Positions 1,701 to 58,439 of a stretch of 64,000 nt of DNA are shown here, in pieces. The DNA lies in contig JAKSZU010000013.1 in assembly GCA_026018925.1 (NCBI GenBank), positions 1,488,001 to 1,552,000 of the forward strand. Direction: 5' to 3'. The position numbers and the translations under genes were made by a program. The notes beneath the pieces were generated by a model that worked only from the letters and a program-made list of their open reading frames with translations, was not told the DNA's origin and did not search any database. The stretch is from Tupaia tana (taxonomy: Eukaryota; Chordata; Mammalia; Scandentia; Tupaiidae). Position 1 is the first letter of the stretch, and each line of letters starts with the position of its first letter.

Positions 1701-2260
1701 CCTTTCTGGTGTTATTGTCACCTGCACCTTTGTATCATGTCCAAGAAGTCATTGCCAAATTCAAGTTGTGAAGTTTCTCCCTATGTTTTCTTTTAAGACT
1801 TTAATATTAGATATTTGATCCATTTTAAAATAGCTTTTGAATATAGTGCCAAATAAGGGTCCACCTTTGTTTTTTGCACATGGATCCCCAATTTCCTGGA
1901 AATTCCCACTGAATAGTCTTGGAACCCTTGTCAGAAATCATTTCAACATATATGTGAGAGCATATTTCTGGGCTTCTCTCCTACTCCATTGCCCTGTGTG
2001 TCTGACTATGCTAGCACTGCACTATTTTGATTACTGTAGGCTTAGTGGTAAATTTTGAAATTAGAGAGTATGCGTTCTGCCTCCCTCCCTGGCGGTTAGT
2101 GCTGCGAGTGCGGAGTGAGTGCTCCAGGCTCGGGACACACATTTATTATTTTAAAACTCCAAAAAAATCTTTTAAAAATCTTTTTAAAAAAACTCAAAAA
2201 CTTTACCAAAAATCCATGTCTCCCTCGCCGGAGACTTTTATTTTTTTTTCTTCCTCTTTT

Positions 2261-5118
2261 TTTTTTTTCTTTTTTTTCATTTTTTTATACATTCAATTAC
2301 CTTTTTTAGCTTACGAAGTGAATATTTCACTATGTGAACATTTCTCCCTAGTCTAGTTGGTTAAACATCATTAGAGGATACTGTGAACATCTGTATGCCA
2401 AGAAACAAGACAATCTGGACGAGATGGACAAATTCCTGGAGACGTATAATCTACCAAGATTGAGCCAGGAGGATATAAAAAGTCTGAATAGGCCCATAAT
2501 AAGCCAGGAGATTGAATCAGTAATAAATAACCTCCCAACAAAGAAAAGTCCTGCCCCTGGTGGCTTCACCTCTGAATTCTACAAAACTTTTATAGATGAG
2601 TTAACCCCCATTCTGCTCAAGTTATTTCTAAAGATCCAAAAAGTTGACTCTCTTCCTAATTCATTATATGAAGCCTCCATCACCCTTATCCTTAAAACAG
2701 ATAAGGACAAGACAAGGAAGAATATAGACACAAAGATTCTCAACAAGATACTAGCAAATCGTATCCAACAACTTATAAAAAAGATTATACATTATGATCA
2801 GATAGGCTTTATTCCAGGAATGCAAGTTTGTTTCAACATATGCAAAACCATAAATGTAATACACTATATTAACAGGAAAAAAGATAAAAACGATATGATT
2901 ATATCAATTGATGCAGAAAAAGCATTTGATAAGATACAACATCCCTTCATAATCAAGACTGTCAGCAAAATTGGCATAGAAGGGCCATTTCTCAATACAA
3001 TAAAAGCCATCTATGAAAAACCCATAGCGAACATCATCCTGAATGGAGAAAAGCTGAAAGCTTTCCCACTAAACACAGGAACAAGACAAGGATGCCCACT
3101 TTCTCCACTCCTTTTCAATATAGTACTGGAAGTCCTCGCCAACACAATCAGAAAAGAAGAAAAAATAAAAGACATCCAAATTGGAAAAGAAGAGGTAAAA
3201 CTCTCTCTATTCACAGATGACATGATTTTATATGTAGAAGACCCAATGGTTCCCAATAAAAAATTTCTGGAAGTAATACATGAATACATTAAAGTTGCAG
3301 GATACAAAATCAATATACAGAAATCTATAGCATTTCTATATACGAGCAACAGGCACACTGAGATTGAACTGAAAAAATTTATTCCATTTACCCTAGCCAC
3401 AAAAAGTATAAGATACTTAGGGATAAATCTAGCCACAGAAATGAAAGACCTCCACAAGGAAAACTATGAGAAGCTAAAAGAAATTGAAAATAACACAAAA
3501 AAGTGGAAGGACATCCCATGTTCCTGGATTAGAAGAATTAATATAATCAAAATGGCAATTCTACCCAAATTAATCTACATATTTAATGCAATGCCAATAA
3601 AGTACTGGACACATTCTTCACAGATCTAGAAAAGACAATCATACTATTTGTCTGGAATCATAAAAGACTTTGTATTGCCAAAGCAATCGTGCACAAGAAG
3701 AGTGGAGTGGGCGGCATCTCACTCCCTGACCCAAAAAATATACTACAAAGCTGTGGTAATCAAAACAGCATGGTACGGGCACCGAAACAGACATGTGGAC
3801 CAATGGAACAGAATAGGGTCCTTAGAAATAAATTCCCAAACATAACAACTGATTTTTGACAAGGGGTACCAGTCAATCCAATGGAAAAAGGAAAACCTCT
3901 TCAGCAAATGGTGCTGGAAAAACTGGATTTTCACCTGCAGAAAGATGAATCTGAACTCCTACCTCTCACCTCTGATAATAATTAAGTCAAGGTGGATCAA
4001 AGATCTAAATCTTAAGACCTCAAACTATTAAACTGCTCCTAGAAAACATGGGGGAAACTCTGGGAGACATTGGGATAGAGAAAGACTTCTTAAAATAAGA
4101 CCCCCATAGCACAGTCACTAGTCCCCAAAATAGACAAGTGGGATTACATCAGACTAAGAAGTTTCTGCATGGCAAAAGACACAGTAATTAATGTGAACCG
4201 ACAGCCCTCAGAATGGGAAAATATTTTTGTAAATTATGCATCAGGTAAGGGACTGATAACAAGAATACACAAGGAACTCAAGCAGCTGTTTGGAAAAAAG
4301 ATGATCAACCCTATTAAAAGATGGGAGAATTAGTTGAAAAAAAAAAAACACTCTAAAGATGACATACGAATAGCCAAAAGGCATATGAAAAAATGCTCAA
4401 CATCCGTCATCATAAGGGAAATGCAGATCAAAACAACAATGAGATACCACCTAACCCCAGTCAGAATGTCTAAGATTGAAAAAGAAACAAAAAAATGATA
4501 AGTTTTGGTGGGGATGTGGTGAAAGGGGAACTCTCTTACACTGCTGGTGGGGATATAAATTAGTCCAGCCACTGTGGAGAACAATTTGGAGACTCCTCAA
4601 AAATCTACAAATAGAACTACCATATGATCCAGCAATCCCACTCCTTGGTATCTACCCAAAAGACAGAATTCTTAATCAAAAAAGTGCTTGCACATCAATG
4701 TTTATTGTGGCACTATTCACAATTGCTAAGACATGGAACCAACCCAAATGCCCCCGAACAGATGAATGGATTGAAAAGCTGTGGCACATATACTGTATGG
4801 AATACTATTCAGCCATAAAAAAAAAAAAATCCTGGCTTTGACAGAAAGTGGAAGAATATGGAAGATTTATTGCTGAGTGAGGCAAGCCAGGCTATGAAGG
4901 AGAGATATTGTATGTCCCCACTTAATATATACCGAGTGTCTGCGCTCTATGACTGAAACTGATTGACTAAAAGATATGCAAACACGATAAATGGGTGTAA
5001 ATACCAGATATAGTGTATGTAGAAGAGTAGGGCCTGAGGAAGGACATTTAGAAGAAAAATAGACAAAGCATTAATGGTACAAGGAAATATAGTATTATCT
5101 GTTGAAGATATTTTATAG
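2261..5118. mobile_element. 5'-inverted (twin-primed) L1 inside the PABPC1 5' UTR
   Basis: A perfect 15-bp target duplication TTTTCTTCCTCTTTT sits at 2246-2260 and 5119-5133. The pre-insertion text across it matches the expected PABPC1 5' UTR. Inside, a poly(T) stretch and about 85 bp of antisense sequence (2261-2355) precede a long sense-strand L1 body (2356-5118) that has no A tail at its right end. That arrangement is a minus-strand insertion whose 5' part was inverted by twin priming: T tail and 3' tip at the left, inverted ORF2 to 3' UTR at the right. The right target end TTTT|AT fits an L1 endonuclease site. Confidence 0.85.
2356..4841 (+). pseudogene. L1 ORF2 remnant (reverse transcriptase part)
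   Basis: The inverted L1 body still has a 401-codon open frame at 2424-3629. It begins in the linker between endonuclease and reverse transcriptase and runs through the RT palm. Motif A ([12 protein letters not shown], Asp from 2910) and the catalytic FTDD box (3210-3221, FADD in most L1s) are visible, so both Asp residues of the pair are kept. Past 3629 it continues with stops and shifts to the usual C-terminal text (EYYSAIKKKK, about 4800-4835). Endonuclease and ORF1 are absent through 5' truncation. It cannot make a full protein. The long frame argues for modest age. Confidence 0.9.
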
Positions 5119-19732: not shown

Positions 19733-19825
19733 GAAGTGCCTACTGGGGCCAGTGGGTGGTTGGATCCTACCTGGCTGACCACACAGGCTGAGTCCTGGAC
19801 CCGGCAGCTTGAAAAATACACCGGG

Positions 19826-21245
19826 GGCGCACGCGGGACCGGGGCCGGCGCGCTAGGCCGCCCGCCTCTGGGCCCGCGCGGGACCGGGGCCGCCCGCCTC
19901 TGGGCCCGCGGCCAGCGCATGGGGCCGCCGGCCTATGGGCCCGCGCGGGACCGGGGCCGCCCGCCTCTGGGCCCGCGCGGGACCGGGGCCGCCCGCCTCT
20001 GGGCCCGCGTGGGACCGGGGCCGGCGCGCTGGGCCTCTCGCCTCTGGGCCTGCGCGGGACCGGGGCCGCCCGCCTCTGGGCCCGCGGCCAGCGCGCGGGG
20101 CCGCCGGCCTCTGGGCCCGCGCGGGACCGGGGCCGCCCGCCTCTGGGCCTGCGTGGGACCGGGGCCGGCGTGCTGGGCCTCTCGCCTCTGGGCCCGCGCG
20201 GGACCGGGGCCGCCCGCCTCTGGGCCCGCGGCCAGCGCATGGGGCCGCCGGCCTATGGGCCCGCGCGGGACCGGGGCCGCCCGCCACTGGGCCTGCGTGG
20301 GACCGGGGCCGGCGCGCTGGGCCTCTCGCCTCTGGGCCTGCGTGGGACCGGGGCCGCCCGCCTCTGGGCCCGCGCGGGACCGGGGCTGCCCGCCTCTGGG
20401 CGCACGCGGGACCGGGGCCGGCGCGCTAGGCCGCCCGCCTCTGGGCCCGCACGGGACCGGGGCCGCCCGCCTCTGGGCCTGTGTGGGACCGGGGCCGGCG
20501 CGCTGGGCCTCTCGCCTCTGGGCCCGCGCGGGACCGGGGCCGCCCGCCTCTGGGTCCGCGCGGGACCGGGGCTGCCCGCCTCTGGGCGCACGCGGGACCG
20601 GGGCCGGCGCGCTAGGCCGCCCGCCTCTGGGCCCGCGCGGGACCGGGGCCGCCCGCCTCTGGGCCCGCGGCCAGCGCATGGGGCCGCCGGCCTCTGGGCC
20701 CGCGCGGGACCGGGGCCGCCCGCCTCTGGGCCTGCGTGGGACCAGGGCCGGCGCGCTGGGCCTCTCGCCTCTGGGCCTGCGCGGGACCGGGGCCGCCCGC
20801 CTCTGGGCCCGCGGCCAGCGCGCGGGGCCGCCGGCCTCTGGGCCCGCGCGGGACCGGGGCCGCCCGCCTCTGGGCCTGCGTGGGACCGGGGCCGGCGCGC
20901 TGGGCCTCTCGCCTCTGGGCCCGCGCGGGACCGGGGCCGCCCGCCTCTGGGCCCGCGCGGGACCGGGGCTGCCCGCCTCTGGGCGCGCGGGACCGGGGCC
21001 AGCGCGCTGGGCCGCCCGCCTCTGGGCCTGCGCGGTACCGGGGCCGCCCGCTTCTGGGCCTGCGTGGGACCGGGGCCGGCGCGCTGGGCCTCTCGCCTCT
21101 GGGCCCGCGCGGGACCGGGGCTGCCCGCCTCTGGGCGCGCGGGACCGGGGCCAGCGCGCTGGGCTGCCCGCCTCTGGGCCTGCGCGGGACCGGGGCCGCC
21201 CGCCTCTGGGCCTGCGCGGGACCGGGGCTGCCCGACTCTGGGCAC
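19826..21245 (+). repeat. 32-bp GC-rich minisatellite with 144-bp higher-order period
   Basis: The unit is GGGACCGGGGCCGCCCGCCT followed by CTGGGCCCGCGC, 32 bp, with variants carrying GGCGCGCTGGGCCTCTCG or a GCCAGCGCGCGG block. The GCCAGCGC marker recurs at 19911, 20087, 20231, 20670 and 20814; spacings of 144 and 176 (144+32) show a higher-order unit. 32 is not a multiple of 3 and the unit lacks stops, so all frames on both strands stay open for hundreds of codons. It is very CpG-dense. Confidence 0.93.
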
Positions 21246-21437
21246 TCGGCGCCTCTGCTTCGCGTTCCGCAGTGGAGGCCGCCCAGCCCCTGCTGCCCCT
21301 CCGGCGCTGGGTGTGTCCTGCGCTCGGCGCCGACGCTGCCTGGCAGCACTCTGACCAGGCAGGCGAACCGGAGGTGGCGCTGGGTCCCGCGCGCATTCGC
21401 GTGCTCGGGGGCTGGTGTGTGCCCGCTGGGCCCGCGC

Positions 21438-21983
21438 GTGGCCGCCGGGCCTGAGCGTGGTTGCGCGCGCTTGGGGCTGACGTGTGGCCATCGGGCCTAC
21501 ACGTGACCGCCGGGTCAGCGCATGGCCGCTGGGTCTGCGAGTGGCCGCTGGGCACACGCATGGCCCCCAGACTGGTGAGTGGCTGCCAGGTCTGAGTGTG
21601 GCTGCCGGGCCCGCTCCTGTGCATGGCCGCCGGGCCTGCGCCTACACATGGCTCCCGGGCCGGAGCGTGGTCACTGGGCCGGCGCACGCCGGGCCTGCGT
21701 GTGGCTCCCGGGCCTGCGAGTGGCCACCGGGCCTGTGCATGACCTCCAGGTTGGCGAGTGGCCACCAGGTCTGAGCATGGCCGCCGGTCCTGTGTGTGGC
21801 CGCCGGGCCTGTGCCCGTGCGTGGCCGCCGGGCCTGTGTGTGATCGCCGGGCCTGTGCGTGGTCGCCGGGCATGCGCCCACGCGTGGCCGCCAGGCCCGC
21901 GCATGGCTGCCGGGCCTGCGCCCAGGCGTGGCCAACGAGCCTGCCCGTGACCGCCGGGCCTGCACGTGACCGGCGGTTGCGAG
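21438..21983 (+). repeat. 19-bp GC-rich minisatellite
   Basis: About 28 degenerate copies of GTGGCCGCCGGGCCTGCGC (the first base often A), some with a 6-bp insert such as CCGTGC or CCACGC. It is less regular than the 32-bp array and ends at GTGACCGGCGGTTGCGAGC. Confidence 0.88.
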
Positions 21984-22710
21984 CAGCAAACTGAAGCCGA
22001 AAACAAGGATTAAGATCTTGCAAATATAAGCAGAAGAAGGAAACCTTGGATGTCTTAAACCAATTGAGAAATGTATGGTATAGGAGGATTTTCGCTGCCT
22101 ATGGGCAGTGAGAAGGTGATGGTACCAGCCCTGCATTACCTCAGGGAAAAATAAGAACTATTCTACCATTCTTAAGGAAGCCAGATACTCGAGGATGACT
22201 CACGCTGCAGATCCCCACAACACCATCCTCGGTAATCACAGGATGGATGCTGTGCTGCATCAGCTGATAACCGTCTCTGCCTACCAGAACTGCGTTCCTG
22301 AAACTGTACTCCATAGAGACTCACCTACAACTGCGGAGCTGCACGAGACCCACCCTTGACCCAACCCTGAATAGAACCTATGTTTCCTATTGTGGAAAAC
22401 TTTATGAGCTCATAATTGAAAAAGGAAAAAAAAAAAAAAAAAAAAAAAAAGGATGAAAGATCTGGAGGGTATGGTCGCAGGGATGGCAACTGCGGATGCT
22501 GGAGACAGCACGGGAGAGGTAATGGGAATGAATGATGGAGGGCGGTTCAGGGAACGATCATCACGTTTGATGGACACAGGGGTGAAGGGTGGTCTGTTGA
22601 AGATGATGTATGTGGGGGTATCATTGTCTTGGCTAATGTTAACTATACTCATGCTGGAAGGGACCATGCTGTACACTGTAAAGATGTCCAATGGAAAAAA
22701 AAAATAATGA

Positions 22711-22973
22711 TAACATTATCGGCACTCTGGCAGAAGGAGAAAGATCCAATGATATGATAGCGGAAAGGATAAATGTGGATGCCGGAGCCTGTAAGGGAGG
22801 GGAGTGGGTGGTCAGGAGAGGGTGGTAGAAAGTGGGCGTGGGGGGCAAAAGGAGGAATCAGTTAACACCAAAAAAAGTAGAGTTCTCTGTTGAAAACTAT
22901 ATACATATATGTATATTGTATACATCATAATGGGAACTTTATGTAAAATGAATTTAATTAATCTGAGAAAAAT

Positions 22974-22977
<4 letters not shown>
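22711..22977 (+). other. L1 3' UTR-like end of the composite element
   Basis: GCCTGTAAGGGAGGGGAGTG and AGTTCTCTGTTGAAAA match, in the same order, the complement of the L1 3' UTR at 35830-36090 (GTCTGTGAGGGAGGGGAGTG and AGTTCTCTGTTGAAAA). The G-rich purine tract between them is an L1 3' UTR hallmark. Confidence 0.78.
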
Positions 22978-23005
<28 letters not shown>

Positions 23006-23177
23006 AAAAAAAAAAAAAGAAAAAAAAAAGAAAAATACACCGGGCACCTGTGCCTGCATGCCCAGGAGAATGGAGAAGAGTACTGTACGGCCATCCCCCT
23101 GAGGGTGCTTTCTCACCACCTCACCGCAGTGACCATATGTGCCTTGTAGCAAAATTTATTTAAAAAAAGAAAAAAAG

Positions 23178-32195: not shown

Positions 32196-32705
32196 TTTTA
32201 TTTCCTTTGTAATGCCAGAGGGCATGTGCAAGAGAACGAGAGCGAGAAAGAGAGAGAGAGAGAAGTCTGGCTGTGCGCAGCCCTTGTTCCCGCTGTTATC
32301 CACCCCATTAGAGTCCGGGCATGCCCAGTGAGGGACTCAGTGTCAGGGCAGTACTCACGCCCCGCGCGTCCTCTGCCGCCGAGTACCCGGGCTGGTACTC
32401 TCACCCTGCACATCCTCTGCCGCCCAGTACCGGGGCTGTACTCACGCCCTTCTCGTCCTCTGCCGAGTACCAGGGTTGTACTCACACCCTGCGCCCTCTG
32501 CCGCCGAGTACCAGGGCTGGTACTCTCACCCTGCACATCCTCTGCCGCCCAGTACCGGGGCTGTACTCACGCCCTTCTCGTCCTCTGCCGAGTACCAGGG
32601 TTGTACTCACACCCTGCGCGTCCTCTGCCGCCGAGTACCAGGGCTGGTACTCTCACCCTGCAGCGTCCTCTGTACACCACTTGCTGTTGCACTATAGGGC
32701 TGGCC
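32196..32705 (-). mobile_element. Antisense SINE enlarged by an internal minisatellite
   Basis: AAAAGACTA (left) and AAAAGACTG (right) look like the target copies in antisense L1. Left text AGGGCATGTGCAAGAGAACG and right end CACTATAGGGCTGGCCCC suit an antisense SINE, but its middle is replaced by a tandem array of about 320 bp. Confidence 0.6.
32351..32668 (+). repeat. About 40-bp minisatellite
   Basis: Seven to eight units such as GTACTCACGCCCTTCTCGTC then CTCTGCCGAGTACCAGGGTT, alternating with a GTACTCTCACCCTGCACATC variant. The variants recur in the same order, giving a three-unit higher-order period of about 120 bp. Confidence 0.9.
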
Positions 32706-34366: not shown

Positions 34367-34639
34367 TTTTTTTTTTTTTTTTTTTGGAGAGGTTTTTTGC
34401 TATAGGGCGCATGCGCTCGCCAGACAGACAGAGAGAGACATAGAGACAGAAAGCGAGAAATCACCCCCCAGGGGGGATGGTCACGCCGCAATCCCTTCTC
34501 CTCCATTCTCCTCTTGGGATCTTGGGCACGCACGCACACGCGCCCGGCGTGAGTTGTAAGCCACCGGGTCCGAGACGCGAACCGCGGTCGACTACGTGGG
34601 AGTCCAGCGACATAGCCATTACGCTAACTGCTGGTTCCC
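34367..34639 (-). mobile_element. SINE-L, antisense, young
   Basis: Almost consensus throughout, with CpG sites retained. CACTTTT precedes it (34360-34366) and follows it (34640-34646). Confidence 0.94.
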
Positions 34640-35007
34640 CACTTTTAGCATAGGTGTTGCCAAAGCTAGCACACTCAGCGTGCTTTCCAAGCCACTGGAT
34701 CCAAGACTGAAACCACACAGTTGGCCACATGTGATCTAGTTCCTCAACCACCAGGTCATGGGTCACCCAATTCAATGTTTTATTTTAATTTTCATTCAGT
34801 TCAAAATATTTTTAAATTTTCTTGACATTCTTCTTCGACCTACATGTTACTTAGAGGTAGGTTGTTTAATGTCCATAGTTTGGCATTTTACAAGTATATT
34901 TCTCTAATCAATTTATAGTCTAATTCCATTGTGGTTCAAAGCATATGTTGTATGACTTCTTTATTCTTTCTTTTGTTTTCTTCCTTTCTTCTTCTTTTCC
35001 CTTCTTC

Positions 35008-35148
35008 CTTTCTTTTCTTTTCTTTTCTTTCTTTCTTTCTTTCCTTCCTTTTCTCCCTTTCTTTCTTTCCTTCCTTTTCTCCCTTCCTTCCTTCCTTCCT
35101 TCCTTCTTTCCTTCCTTCTTTCCTTCCTTCCTTCCTTCCTTCCTTTCT

Positions 35149-35212
<64 letters not shown>

Positions 35213-35225
35213 TTCTTCTTTTTCT

Positions 35226-35270
<45 letters not shown>

Positions 35271-35308
35271 TTTTCTTTCTTTCTTTTTCTTTCCTTCTTT
35301 CTTTCTTT
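35008..35308 (+). repeat. CTTT/CCTT microsatellite tract
   Basis: About 300 bp of pure pyrimidine: TTTTC, CTTT and CCTT blocks in alternating domains, the longest a (CTTT)n run around 35145-35215. It reads open in several frames as Phe/Ser/Leu or Lys/Glu/Arg, which is not coding. It adjoins the T-rich end of the next SINE and probably grew from its tail. Confidence 0.95.
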
Positions 35309-35820: not shown

Positions 35821-36407
35821 TGTAGCATATGACAATCAAATCAAGTATTTTACCATATACATCATTTTCAACAGAGAACTTCACATTCTTCTGTCTGTTA
35901 AGTGTTTCTTTCTTTGACCCTCCCACCTACCTTCTACCACTCCCCTCCCTCACAGACTCTGGTATCTACACTGTCCTGCCTATCGCCTTTCCATTTCTGC
36001 CACAGAGTGTAGATAGACATCCAGCTACAGTGAGCGAGGGTATCGTGTTTCTCTTTCAAAGTCTGACTGACTTTGCTTAGCATTCAGTCTTCCATATTCA
36101 ACCACTTCGAGTCAAATGACGGTGTCTCATTGTTCCTTATGGCTGAATAGTGTTCCATAGTGTACATGTGCCACAGTTTCTTAACCCGGTCATCAGTTCT
36201 TGGGCACTCAGATTGATTCCACGTCTTTGTGATTGCAAATATTGCAGCAGTAAACGTGGAAGTGCAAGTGTTTTTCCAACTGAGTGCTTCCCCATTCTCT
36301 GGATAAGTACCACCGAGTGGGAATACTGGATCGTGTGGTAATTCTATTTGTAGGTTTTTGAGAAAACTCCATATTGTTTATACAGAGGCTGTACAAATTT
36401 ATGTTCT

Positions 36408-36663
36408 TTTTTTTTGGGGGGGGGGAGGTTTTTGCTATAGGGCGCATGCACTCGCCAGACAGACAGAGAGAGACAGAGAGACAGAAAGCGAGAAATCACC
36501 CCCCAGGGGGGATGGCCCTGCCGCAATCCCTTCTCCTCCATTCTCCTCTCGGGATCTTGGGCACGCATGCCCACTTGAGTTTAAGCCACCGGGTCTGGGA
36601 CACGAACCATGGTTGACTACATGGGAGTCCAGCAACAGAGCCATTACGGTAACTGCTAGTCCC
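36408..36663 (-). mobile_element. SINE-L, antisense, with target duplication
   Basis: TACAAATTTA at 36392-36401 and 36664-36673. A run of eleven Gs stands where the tail should end (about 36416-36426). The right end reads AACTGCTAGTCCC. Confidence 0.92.
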
Positions 36664-38373
36664 TACAAATTTACATTCTCATCGACAGTGTAGGAGTGCT
36701 CCTGTTTTACCACAGCCTCACCAACACTCGTCATTCTTTTTCTTTTTTTTTTTTTTTTTGATTGTAGCTATTTTGACAGGGAGAAAGTGTTATCTCATTG
36801 TGGTTTTGATCTACATTTCCCTTACGATGAGAGATGTTACACATCTTTTCATGCATTTTGGCCACTCATGTCTTCTTTAGAGAGTACTCTGTTTAGTTCA
36901 TTTGCTCATTTTTAATTAGATTATTCATTTTTCTATTGGATTTTTCAATTTTTTGTGGGTTAGGTGCTTGAGTTCTCTATATATTTTGGTTATCAATCTC
37001 TTATCTGAGGAATACCTTACAAATTATTTTCTCCCCGTGAGTTGTCTCGTCACTCTATTTATTATTTCCTTTGCTGTGCAGAAGTTTTTTAGTTCGACGT
37101 AGTCCCACTTGTCTACTTTTGGAATTATTGCCTATGCTTCAGGGGTCTTATTTTAAAAATCATTGCCTCATATAATGTTTTTAAGAGTCCCTCTGTGTTT
37201 TCCACCAGTAGTTGTATAGTTTGAGGCTTCCTACTTAAATCGTTAATCCACTTTGAGTTGATTTGTGTTAATGGTGAGAAATAAGGGCCAGGCTTAATAC
37301 TTGTGCAGGTGGATATCCATTTCTCCCAGCACCATTTGCTGAAAAGACTTTTCCCCACTGTATTGTCTTGTACCCTTTGCCAAAGATCAGTTGGCTGTAT
37401 GATTTGGGGTTTATTTCTGGATCCTCTAGTCTATTCCATTGATCTATATGTCTATCTTTTGTGCTAACACTACGCTATTTTAATTATCACTGCTTTGTAA
37501 TGTATTTTGAAGTCAGTAGTGAGTTGTCTCCTACTGTATTCTTTTTGCACAGTCTTGACTTGGTAATATGGGATCTTTTATGATTCCAACCAAATTTTAT
37601 AATTGTTTTTTTCTAATTATGTGAAGAATGTCACCAGTAATTTGATCAGAATAGCATTGAATATGTAAACTAATTTGAGTAAAACTGATATTTTGATTAT
37701 GTTGATTCTTTCAATCCAAGAAAACAGGATATCTTCCCATCTTTTGGTATTATACTCAATTTCTTTGTTCATTTTCAGTTTTCTTTGTAGAGGTCTTTCA
37801 CCTTTGGGGTTAGGTTTATTCTTAGGTATGTTATTTATTTTGTGGCTATTGTAAATGGGATTGCTTTCTTCAATTCTGTTTCAATCTGTTCATCTTTAAT
37901 GTATATAAATGCTATTGAGTTTTGTATATTGATTTTAAGTCCTGGTACTTTGCTGAATTAATTTATCCCTTCTAGGAGTATTTTCATGAATTTCCTTGAA
38001 TTCTGTATGTATATAATTATAGCATCTGTGAATGACAGTTTAGCTTCTTTTCCTATCTGAGTGCCTTTTATTTGCTCTCTTGTCTGATTACATTGGCTAG
38101 GATTTCCAGTACTATGTTGAAAAGGAGTGGAGAGGCACCAGGCCTGCACATTTGGCCTGGAGGCAGGGCTCCAGCAGGGCTGGGACTGGGGTTGGGAGGA
38201 AGTGGCTTCACCATGACACTGAGCCCAGCTGGGCTGCGACCGGACAGGCCATGGGGGGGCGGGGGGGGGGGGGGGTGTCACAGGGCTGGGGCAGGGGAGG
38301 GGCAGTAGCAGCCTTGAGGGGGGGCAGGCAGGCTCTGGAGTGGGCCTCTGCCAGGGCGCTACATTGCCATCAC

Positions 38374-58197: not shown

Positions 58198-58220
58198 TAT
58201 TTTGCTTTCCGTTTGTTCTC

Positions 58221-58297
58221 TTGTGTTGTTGAGAAAGTCATGATGCATTTTTGCATAGGAAAACAAAAAATGTGTCATGACTTTCCCAACAACCCAA
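58221..58297. mobile_element. Second mariner-type miniature element
   Basis: TTGTGTTGTTGAGAAAGTCA and TGACTTTCCCAACAACCCAA are near-perfect inverted ends around a short core. It is only 23 bp from the preceding element and of the same family. Confidence 0.85.
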
Positions 58298-58439
58298 TAC
58301 TTCTGGGAGATTTCTTTAATATTACACTACAACCTTTATTTGCTGTTTTTAACTACCACAATTTTAAAAGTTGCTTGAGTTTTTTCCTGTTCTCTCTTAA
58401 ATCGTATTACCTATTTTTTTTCTCATGAATGCAATATCC

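Follow-up and report, generated by a model that had tools for sequence, protein, structure and literature searches.

The composite element at positions 19826 to 23029 of the window (the 64,000-nucleotide stretch of Tupaia tana DNA analyzed here) is very probably a member of a young family of non-autonomous, non-LTR retrotransposons of the VNTR-composite type, whose copies start in a GC-rich minisatellite (VNTR1) and would be mobilized in trans by LINE-1 (L1). A search of the host genome with part of the element supports the family reading proposed in a first-pass annotation of the same DNA.

Structure and insertion site of the element

The presence of a composite VNTR element at 19826 to 23029 was confirmed, and its parts and flanks are as follows.

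19811..19825, + strand: left copy of the target site duplication (TSD), 15 bp, matching 23030-23044 exactly and lying within an older tRNA-derived SINE
19826..21250, + strand: VNTR1, GC-rich minisatellite of 32/45/67-bp units with a 33-mer as its last unit; 5' end of the element and putative promoter array
21251..21408, + strand: GC-rich spacer (SP), 158 bp, single-copy in the window element and conserved across copies
21409..21980, + strand: VNTR2, diverged 19/25-bp repeat
21981..22425, + strand: MID, unique middle, 445 bp, with no Pfam match above the cut-off in three forward frames
22426..22450, + strand: internal A-run, 25 pure bases (12 bases in copies L036 to L038)
22451..22705, + strand: U1, first L1-like 3' UTR unit, resembling U2 and the L1 3' UTR of the window
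22706..22967, + strand: U2, second L1-like 3' UTR unit, resembling the L1 3' UTR of the window
22968..23029, + strand: A-rich tail, 62 bases, with AATAAA motifs
23030..23044, + strand: right copy of the TSD, exact pair of the left one

VNTR1 has a G+C content of 86% and an observed/expected CpG ratio of 0.87. The two GC-rich minisatellites described in the first-pass annotation were both recovered, together with the GC-rich spacer between them, which it had missed. The internal A-run that it gave as A27 is present, but the pure run has 25 bases. Similarly, the 3' UTR at the end of the element is L1-type as described, but it is a tandem dimer of 3' UTR-like units (517 bp in total) rather than a single unit. 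The score between VNTR1 and VNTR2 units was reached by 15 of 2,000 shuffles, which is only suggestive of a relationship. No G-quadruplex pattern was found on either strand of VNTR1 or of 21251-21980, and there were 0 Rfam matches at the gathering threshold. MID was rejected as a coding sequence, given the absence of Pfam matches above the cut-off in its three forward frames and a sole PDB match with an E value of 1.2. The Pfam test covered these frames and most of those of the 3' module, the third frame there being represented by an 84-codon stretch only; matches below the cut-off (U83, E value of 0.065; DUF6899, 0.11; DltX, 0.41) were taken as chance. The 84-codon open frame at 22453, which lies within U1, was also rejected as a gene, since frames of equal length occurred in 16 of 2,000 simple shuffles and it had no Pfam match.

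When both strands of the window are considered, the 15-bp direct repeat GAAAAATACACCGGG is confined to two sites, 19811-19825 and 23030-23044, so that the perfect repeat reported earlier is both exact and unique as a pair. When the flanks are joined at this repeat, a 59-bp ungapped alignment spans the junction and is identical at 47 of 59 positions to a SINE consensus built from the window's own tRNA-derived SINE copies (31 long matches out of 40). The SINE runs gap-free across the joined flanks, and the element is therefore an insertion into an older tRNA-derived SINE; that it lies inside one older SINE had been proposed in the first-pass annotation. The SINE pattern had 0 matches in viral contigs.

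Copies in the host genome

The genome of the host (2,948,224,869 bases in 1,198 contigs) was searched with the 994-bp segment 21984-22977, and the best 40 of 3,747 first-look candidates were scored, fetched, and examined. In total, 36 of these 40 places, including the window copy, match the segment over its full length at 98 to 100%, and 4 are partial; three further short match rows are parts of copies already counted. The order VNTR1-spacer-VNTR2-MID-A-run-U1-U2-A-tail is kept in 33 of the 36 full-segment copies, and the other 3 are 5' truncated, L011 and L032 at the end of VNTR2 and L029 within the spacer. In all 36 copies, MID and U1 are separated by the A-run alone, and therefore no ORF1 or ORF2 lies between the ends. 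Since the A-run is common to all of them, any fusion of earlier insertions predates the family. The several copies of common order with their own TSDs that the first-pass annotation expected of a family were thus recovered among the best 40 of 3,747 candidates, and neither a lack of further copies nor ORF1/ORF2 between the same ends, which it had associated with a single deleted L1, was seen in the full-segment copies. Two of the partial copies, L045 and L046, begin in MID. In another, L047, a 14-nt TSD encloses window 21651-21333 in reverse, followed by 22391-23000, a 5' inversion of the kind expected from twin priming. The fourth, L035, holds U1-U2 only, with no ORF2 upstream, and is either a truncated family copy or another element.

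TSDs of at least 12 nt that are not merely A-rich were found at 33 of the 40 places, some of them read by eye. The remaining seven places have 9 nt (L009 and L045), 7 nt (L044), A-rich repeats of 13, 11, and 8 nt (L013, L018, and L029, respectively), or no TSD by eye (L035). The target sites resemble those of the L1 endonuclease, being T-rich before the cut with AAAA after it: each of TSD positions 1 to 4 is A in 30 to 31 of 34 listed sites and the base before the cut is T in 17, where leading A's of the TSD are indistinguishable from tail A's and the readings for L009 and L011 come from a wrong occurrence. Extra A-tailed sequences within the TSDs of L025 (~230 bp), L026 (~105 bp), and L038 (~45 bp) look like 3' transductions, and L044 (~60 bp) is a weaker case. 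The copies are dispersed and carry their own TSDs and A-tails, as do non-autonomous retrotransposons mobilized by L1, and it is probably the LINE-1 machinery of the host that mobilizes the family. The transduction-like 3' ends, the 5' inversion, and the likely parent-daughter pair described below fit L1 movement in trans.

Age, subfamilies, and array turnover

Over MID, U1, and U2, the 36 full-segment copies show 51 substitutions at 34,379 sites (0.148%) relative to their majority consensus; 7 copies are identical to the consensus, and no copy has more than 4 substitutions. With a substitution rate of about 2 × 10^-9 per site and year, this divergence suggests an age under a million years for a set that consists of the best-scoring 40 of 3,747 candidates, beyond which older copies may be unseen. 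The fairly recent movement suggested by the first-pass annotation agrees with this value, within a set chosen by best score. Some copies have further changes in common: L036 to L038 share a 10-bp spacer deletion and the 12-base A-run; L016, L026, and L033 lack 25 bp of VNTR2; and, among 20 copies compared, L010, L013, L014, L020, L021, L023, and L025 share two VNTR2 changes.

The terminal unit of VNTR1 is the same 33-mer in the 33 copies that bear the array, exactly in 28, with one mismatch in 4, and with three mismatches in 1. The inner unit orders vary even among L012, L013, L017, L018, and L021, which are identical in MID, U1, and U2 and have arrays of 749 to 2012 bp. The tail of L042 contains TTCTTTTAAAAA, which is the 3' flank of L020, and the L042 array is colinear with that of L020 from base 145 to its end (99.56% over 1,814 bp, with 6 mismatches and 2 gaps). 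The arrays of L014 and L021, the only other two compared, match that of L020 at 90% and 85%, respectively. L020 and L042 are likely parent and daughter, the alternatives being sisterhood or an assembly error in long arrays. The array match and the shared flank of this pair suggest faithful copying of the array with shortening at its 5' end, and remodeling would occur mostly in DNA.

Origin of the 3' module and the L1 partner

None of 500 dinucleotide shuffles reached the score of U1 against U2, of U1 against the L1 3' UTR of the window, or of U2 against the same 3' UTR. The kinship of U1 is demonstrated to about 22690, and the unit terminates in an A10 run. The stretch 22815-22896 aligns with the 3' terminus of an older L1, a fragment on the minus strand at 35865-35948, with 76% identity over 85 columns. 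Among 194 window chunks compared on both strands, the two L1-bearing chunks score 280 and 282 with U1 and 336 and 303 with U2, and all others score at most 163 and 179, respectively. MID was also tried as a 3' UTR relative, and its kinship was not accepted, since 12 of 200, 8 of 200, 72 of 200, and 28 of 500 shuffles reached the score.

A reverse transcriptase search of the genome, in which 150 of 24,721 candidates were scored, gave many matches in open ORF2 frames of 1,290 or 1,343 amino acids. When U1 and U2 were compared with the 3' UTRs of these two L1 groups, 27, 38, 49, and 245 of 500 shuffles reached the scores, with one copy used per group and a second copy agreeing with it at 545 of 545 and 725 of 729 bases. 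In the first L1 sample (L048 to L050), no match to U1 or U2 was good enough to retain. The two units resemble the sampled L1 3' UTRs weakly or not at all, and the driving L1 is therefore not pinned to these groups. Judged by their similarities, U1 and U2 derive from L1 elements, although neither of the two sampled groups is visibly their source, and mobilization may depend on the A-tail instead of 3' UTR recognition.

5' ends, putative promoter, and alternative explanations

In the 33 VNTR1-bearing copies, the element starts inside VNTR1, 289 to 2012 bp ahead of the spacer, which is also the range of array lengths; the start of L044 depends on its 7-nt TSD. Of these copies, 28 begin with G, compared with 44% G in the arrays (P = 1.5e-6). 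Eight of the 33 copies start at GCCCGCCTCT (P = 0.001 versus random G positions), a preference that was spotted post hoc, with 6 of 20 copies in the first batch and 2 of 13 in the later one. Of these eight, five carry an extra leading G; inside the arrays, GGCCCGCCTC occurs once and GCCCGCCTC 620 times. For L1, an extra G is the trace expected from reverse transcription of the cap. We infer that transcription begins within the VNTR1 array, so that the minisatellite would serve as a promoter much like the monomers of mouse L1. RNA polymerase II would initiate inside VNTR1, and L1 ORF2p, acting in trans, would reverse transcribe the capped, polyadenylated RNA at a nicked target. Units may be lost from the 5' end of VNTR1 in every round, and array expansion in DNA could compensate for the loss. 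The whole proposal, that VNTR composites originated independently outside the apes and that VNTR1 is a Pol II promoter with a fixed start step in its 32-bp unit, whose 5' units are trimmed by each jump and restored by expansion, is tentative and somewhat more apt to fail than to hold. If it is true, the minisatellite is the engine of the element.

The chief rival to transcription from within the array is plain 5' truncation in a GC-rich array, in which case the varied 5' ends would be uninformative on the transcription start and the promoter would lie upstream or be borrowed; this is doubtful but a serious possibility. In its favor, GC-rich repeats may cause reverse transcriptase to stall, the start step differs among copies, with 25 of 33 starting away from the preferred one, and no internal promoter has been identified in SVA according to one report (PMC12593883). 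However, the strong G preference, the one preferred step, and the extra G's argue against this rival, as do the findings that just 3 of 36 copies end between VNTR1 and MID and that no copy of the 36 has a module upstream of VNTR1.

It is unlikely that the family is instead an internally deleted L1 without ORFs that retained a tandem-repeat 5' UTR and the 3' UTR. The 3' module is L1-like, and tandem repeats occur near the 5' ends of one young L1 (158 bp) and of an ORF1-only element (125 bp) of this genome. However, an L1 would not have an A-run such as the one that separates MID from U1, and the comparison of the spacer, VNTR2, and the VNTR1 unit with ten 5' regions, from L1s and ORF1-only elements with an ORF1 start visible in six, gave 3 of 100 shuffles in 2 of 30 comparisons, which is about chance. 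Among the L1s and ORF1-only elements, no tandem GC-rich 5' UTR was seen in L058 and no ORF1 start in L065 or L066. MID as an L1 5' UTR was rejected, since its high score to L059 (0 of 500 and 0 of 300 shuffles; 0 of 194 chunks) extends over the L1 flank and was not reproduced in L060 to L062, which belong to the same L1 group by ORF1 start. A third L1 line, outside those sampled, could still be the source. It is highly improbable that separate insertions piled up by chance at one locus or that segmental duplication produced the copies. At a single locus, insertion of a truncated L1 into the A-tail of an older element would give the same picture, but the joints are common to 36 places, and such a nested insertion into the A-tail of a VNTR element was dropped for this locus. 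Against segmental duplication, the flanks of 21 copies had no same-strand match of >250 bp, the range covered by the comparison, apart from a satellite at L011 and ~265-bp repeats, presumably SINEs, in L016, L018, L019, L024, and L027.

Comparison with known retrotransposons

The HAL1-like ORF1-only elements of the same genome (L051/L053) are also non-autonomous, with tandem 5' repeats and a doubled 3' UTR (0 of 500 shuffles). The scores of U2 against both of their 3' UTR units were reached by 0 and 1 of 500 shuffles, and those of U1 are weak (188 and 3 of 500). However, these elements have a 340-amino-acid ORF1 frame, which is absent from the family, where MID, the A-run, and U1 adjoin in 36 copies, and they show no match beyond chance to VNTR1, the spacer, or VNTR2. 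Mouse L1 likewise has a tandem-repeat 5' end of variable copy number, but it is autonomous and coding, its monomers are much longer than the units of the family, and the promoter activity of the family is putative. According to one study, the duplication of monomers helps to preserve mouse L1 promoters when retrotransposition is prone to truncation (PMC6454616).

Two papers (PMC4432496; PMC7353768) describe VNTR composites as hominoid specific, and a third (PMC13174262) calls SVA hominid specific. No description of VNTR composites outside primates was found in the open-access literature, where papers naming both "VNTR composite" and "retrotransposon" have primate topics or are general reviews, as far as their titles and the beginnings of their abstracts indicate; a Repbase or Dfam entry for the host is still possible. 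The family would lie outside the apes, in a host whose SINEs are tRNA-derived and presumably unlike those of apes. A second very young VNTR-composite family with other parts would reveal what the design needs, which would be a GC-rich array together with a 3' end that has an A-tail and can be used by L1, with the Alu-like/hexamer head being dispensable. Array turnover and 5'-end formation can be measured from near-identical copies whose arrays differ and from the likely parent-daughter pair, and the family should supply insertion markers in the host.

The family was compared with SVA and SVA2 in layout and repeat unit length. The resemblance to SVA claimed in the first-pass annotation holds for the layout but not for the parts. 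The nearest plan is that of SVA2 of macaque and gibbon, a VNTR plus 3' unique sequence. To our knowledge, SVA2 has neither an A-run nor an L1-like 3' UTR dimer, both of which are present in the family. According to PMC4432496, SVA2 is the common ancestor of the VNTR composites and has units of 40 and 39 bp, in contrast to the 32/45/67-bp units found here. As described there, SVA, LAVA, PVA, and FVA are, like the family, non-autonomous elements with a TSD, an A-tail, a GC-rich VNTR of about 30- to 70-bp units that is variable in length, and a 3' module from another source (L1-derived in LAVA), and in SVA and LAVA array remodeling also apparently occurs in DNA. These elements have a common 5' CT-hexamer/Alu-like region, whereas the VNTR is the 5' end in the family, which has in addition a second VNTR, a unique middle with an A-run, and a doubled 3' UTR. 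In 33 copies, VNTR1 directly follows the 5' TSD, and the family is therefore set apart from SVA, LAVA, PVA, and FVA, though it appears to work like them.

L1 lineages with open reading frames

Among the L1 loci sampled in the same genome (L054 to L064), there are two L1 groups, with open ORF2 frames of 1290 and 1343 amino acids, whose copies are almost identical. Because open ORF2 frames and near-identical copies occur in both groups, L1 is probably active in the host genome. One copy of the second group (1343-aa ORF2) carries a 158-bp tandem repeat on its 5' side.

L1-related and other repeats in the window

22453-22704: 84-codon open frame within U1, the first L1-like 3'UTR unit of the composite element, directly after the internal A-run
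35865-37400, minus strand: diverged L1 fragment, with a 3'UTR match and L1-type protein motifs
36436-36663: SINE interrupting the L1 fragment
32344-32672: 44-bp minisatellite separate from the composite element, 7.8 copies, higher-order period of 125 bp
34964-35308: imperfect TTCT microsatellite of considerable length (85 copies)
58219-58299, both strands: mir-548-like palindrome, from comparison with Rfam

We take positions 35865-37400 to be L1 from the 3'UTR match and the protein motifs. Past the 3' end of this fragment (about 35.6-35.8 kb), further sequence resembling an L1 endonuclease region was seen by eye. The U1 frame had no match in a Pfam search, and frames of at least 84 codons arose in 16 of 2000 shuffles. 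The palindrome scored 47.2 bits against mir-548, under the Rfam gathering score of 90, and is perhaps a short DNA transposon.

Elsewhere in the genome, the family copy L011, truncated at its 5' end, lies within a satellite-like array with a period of about 190 bp (by eye) on contig C1064 (30,885 bp), which also has an L1 reverse-transcriptase frame (2254-3012).

A HAL1-like element

G000:C531:94714700-94719400: ORF1-only, HAL1-like element (L051 and L053) with a 340-aa ORF1 frame

The initial 1.4 kb of L051 resembles, by eye, an ORF1 region in inverted orientation. Open frames of 340 aa occur in many of the 150 ORF1 matches scored in the genome. This HAL1-like element has a 125-bp tandem repeat on its 5' side and a 3'UTR present as a doubled unit.
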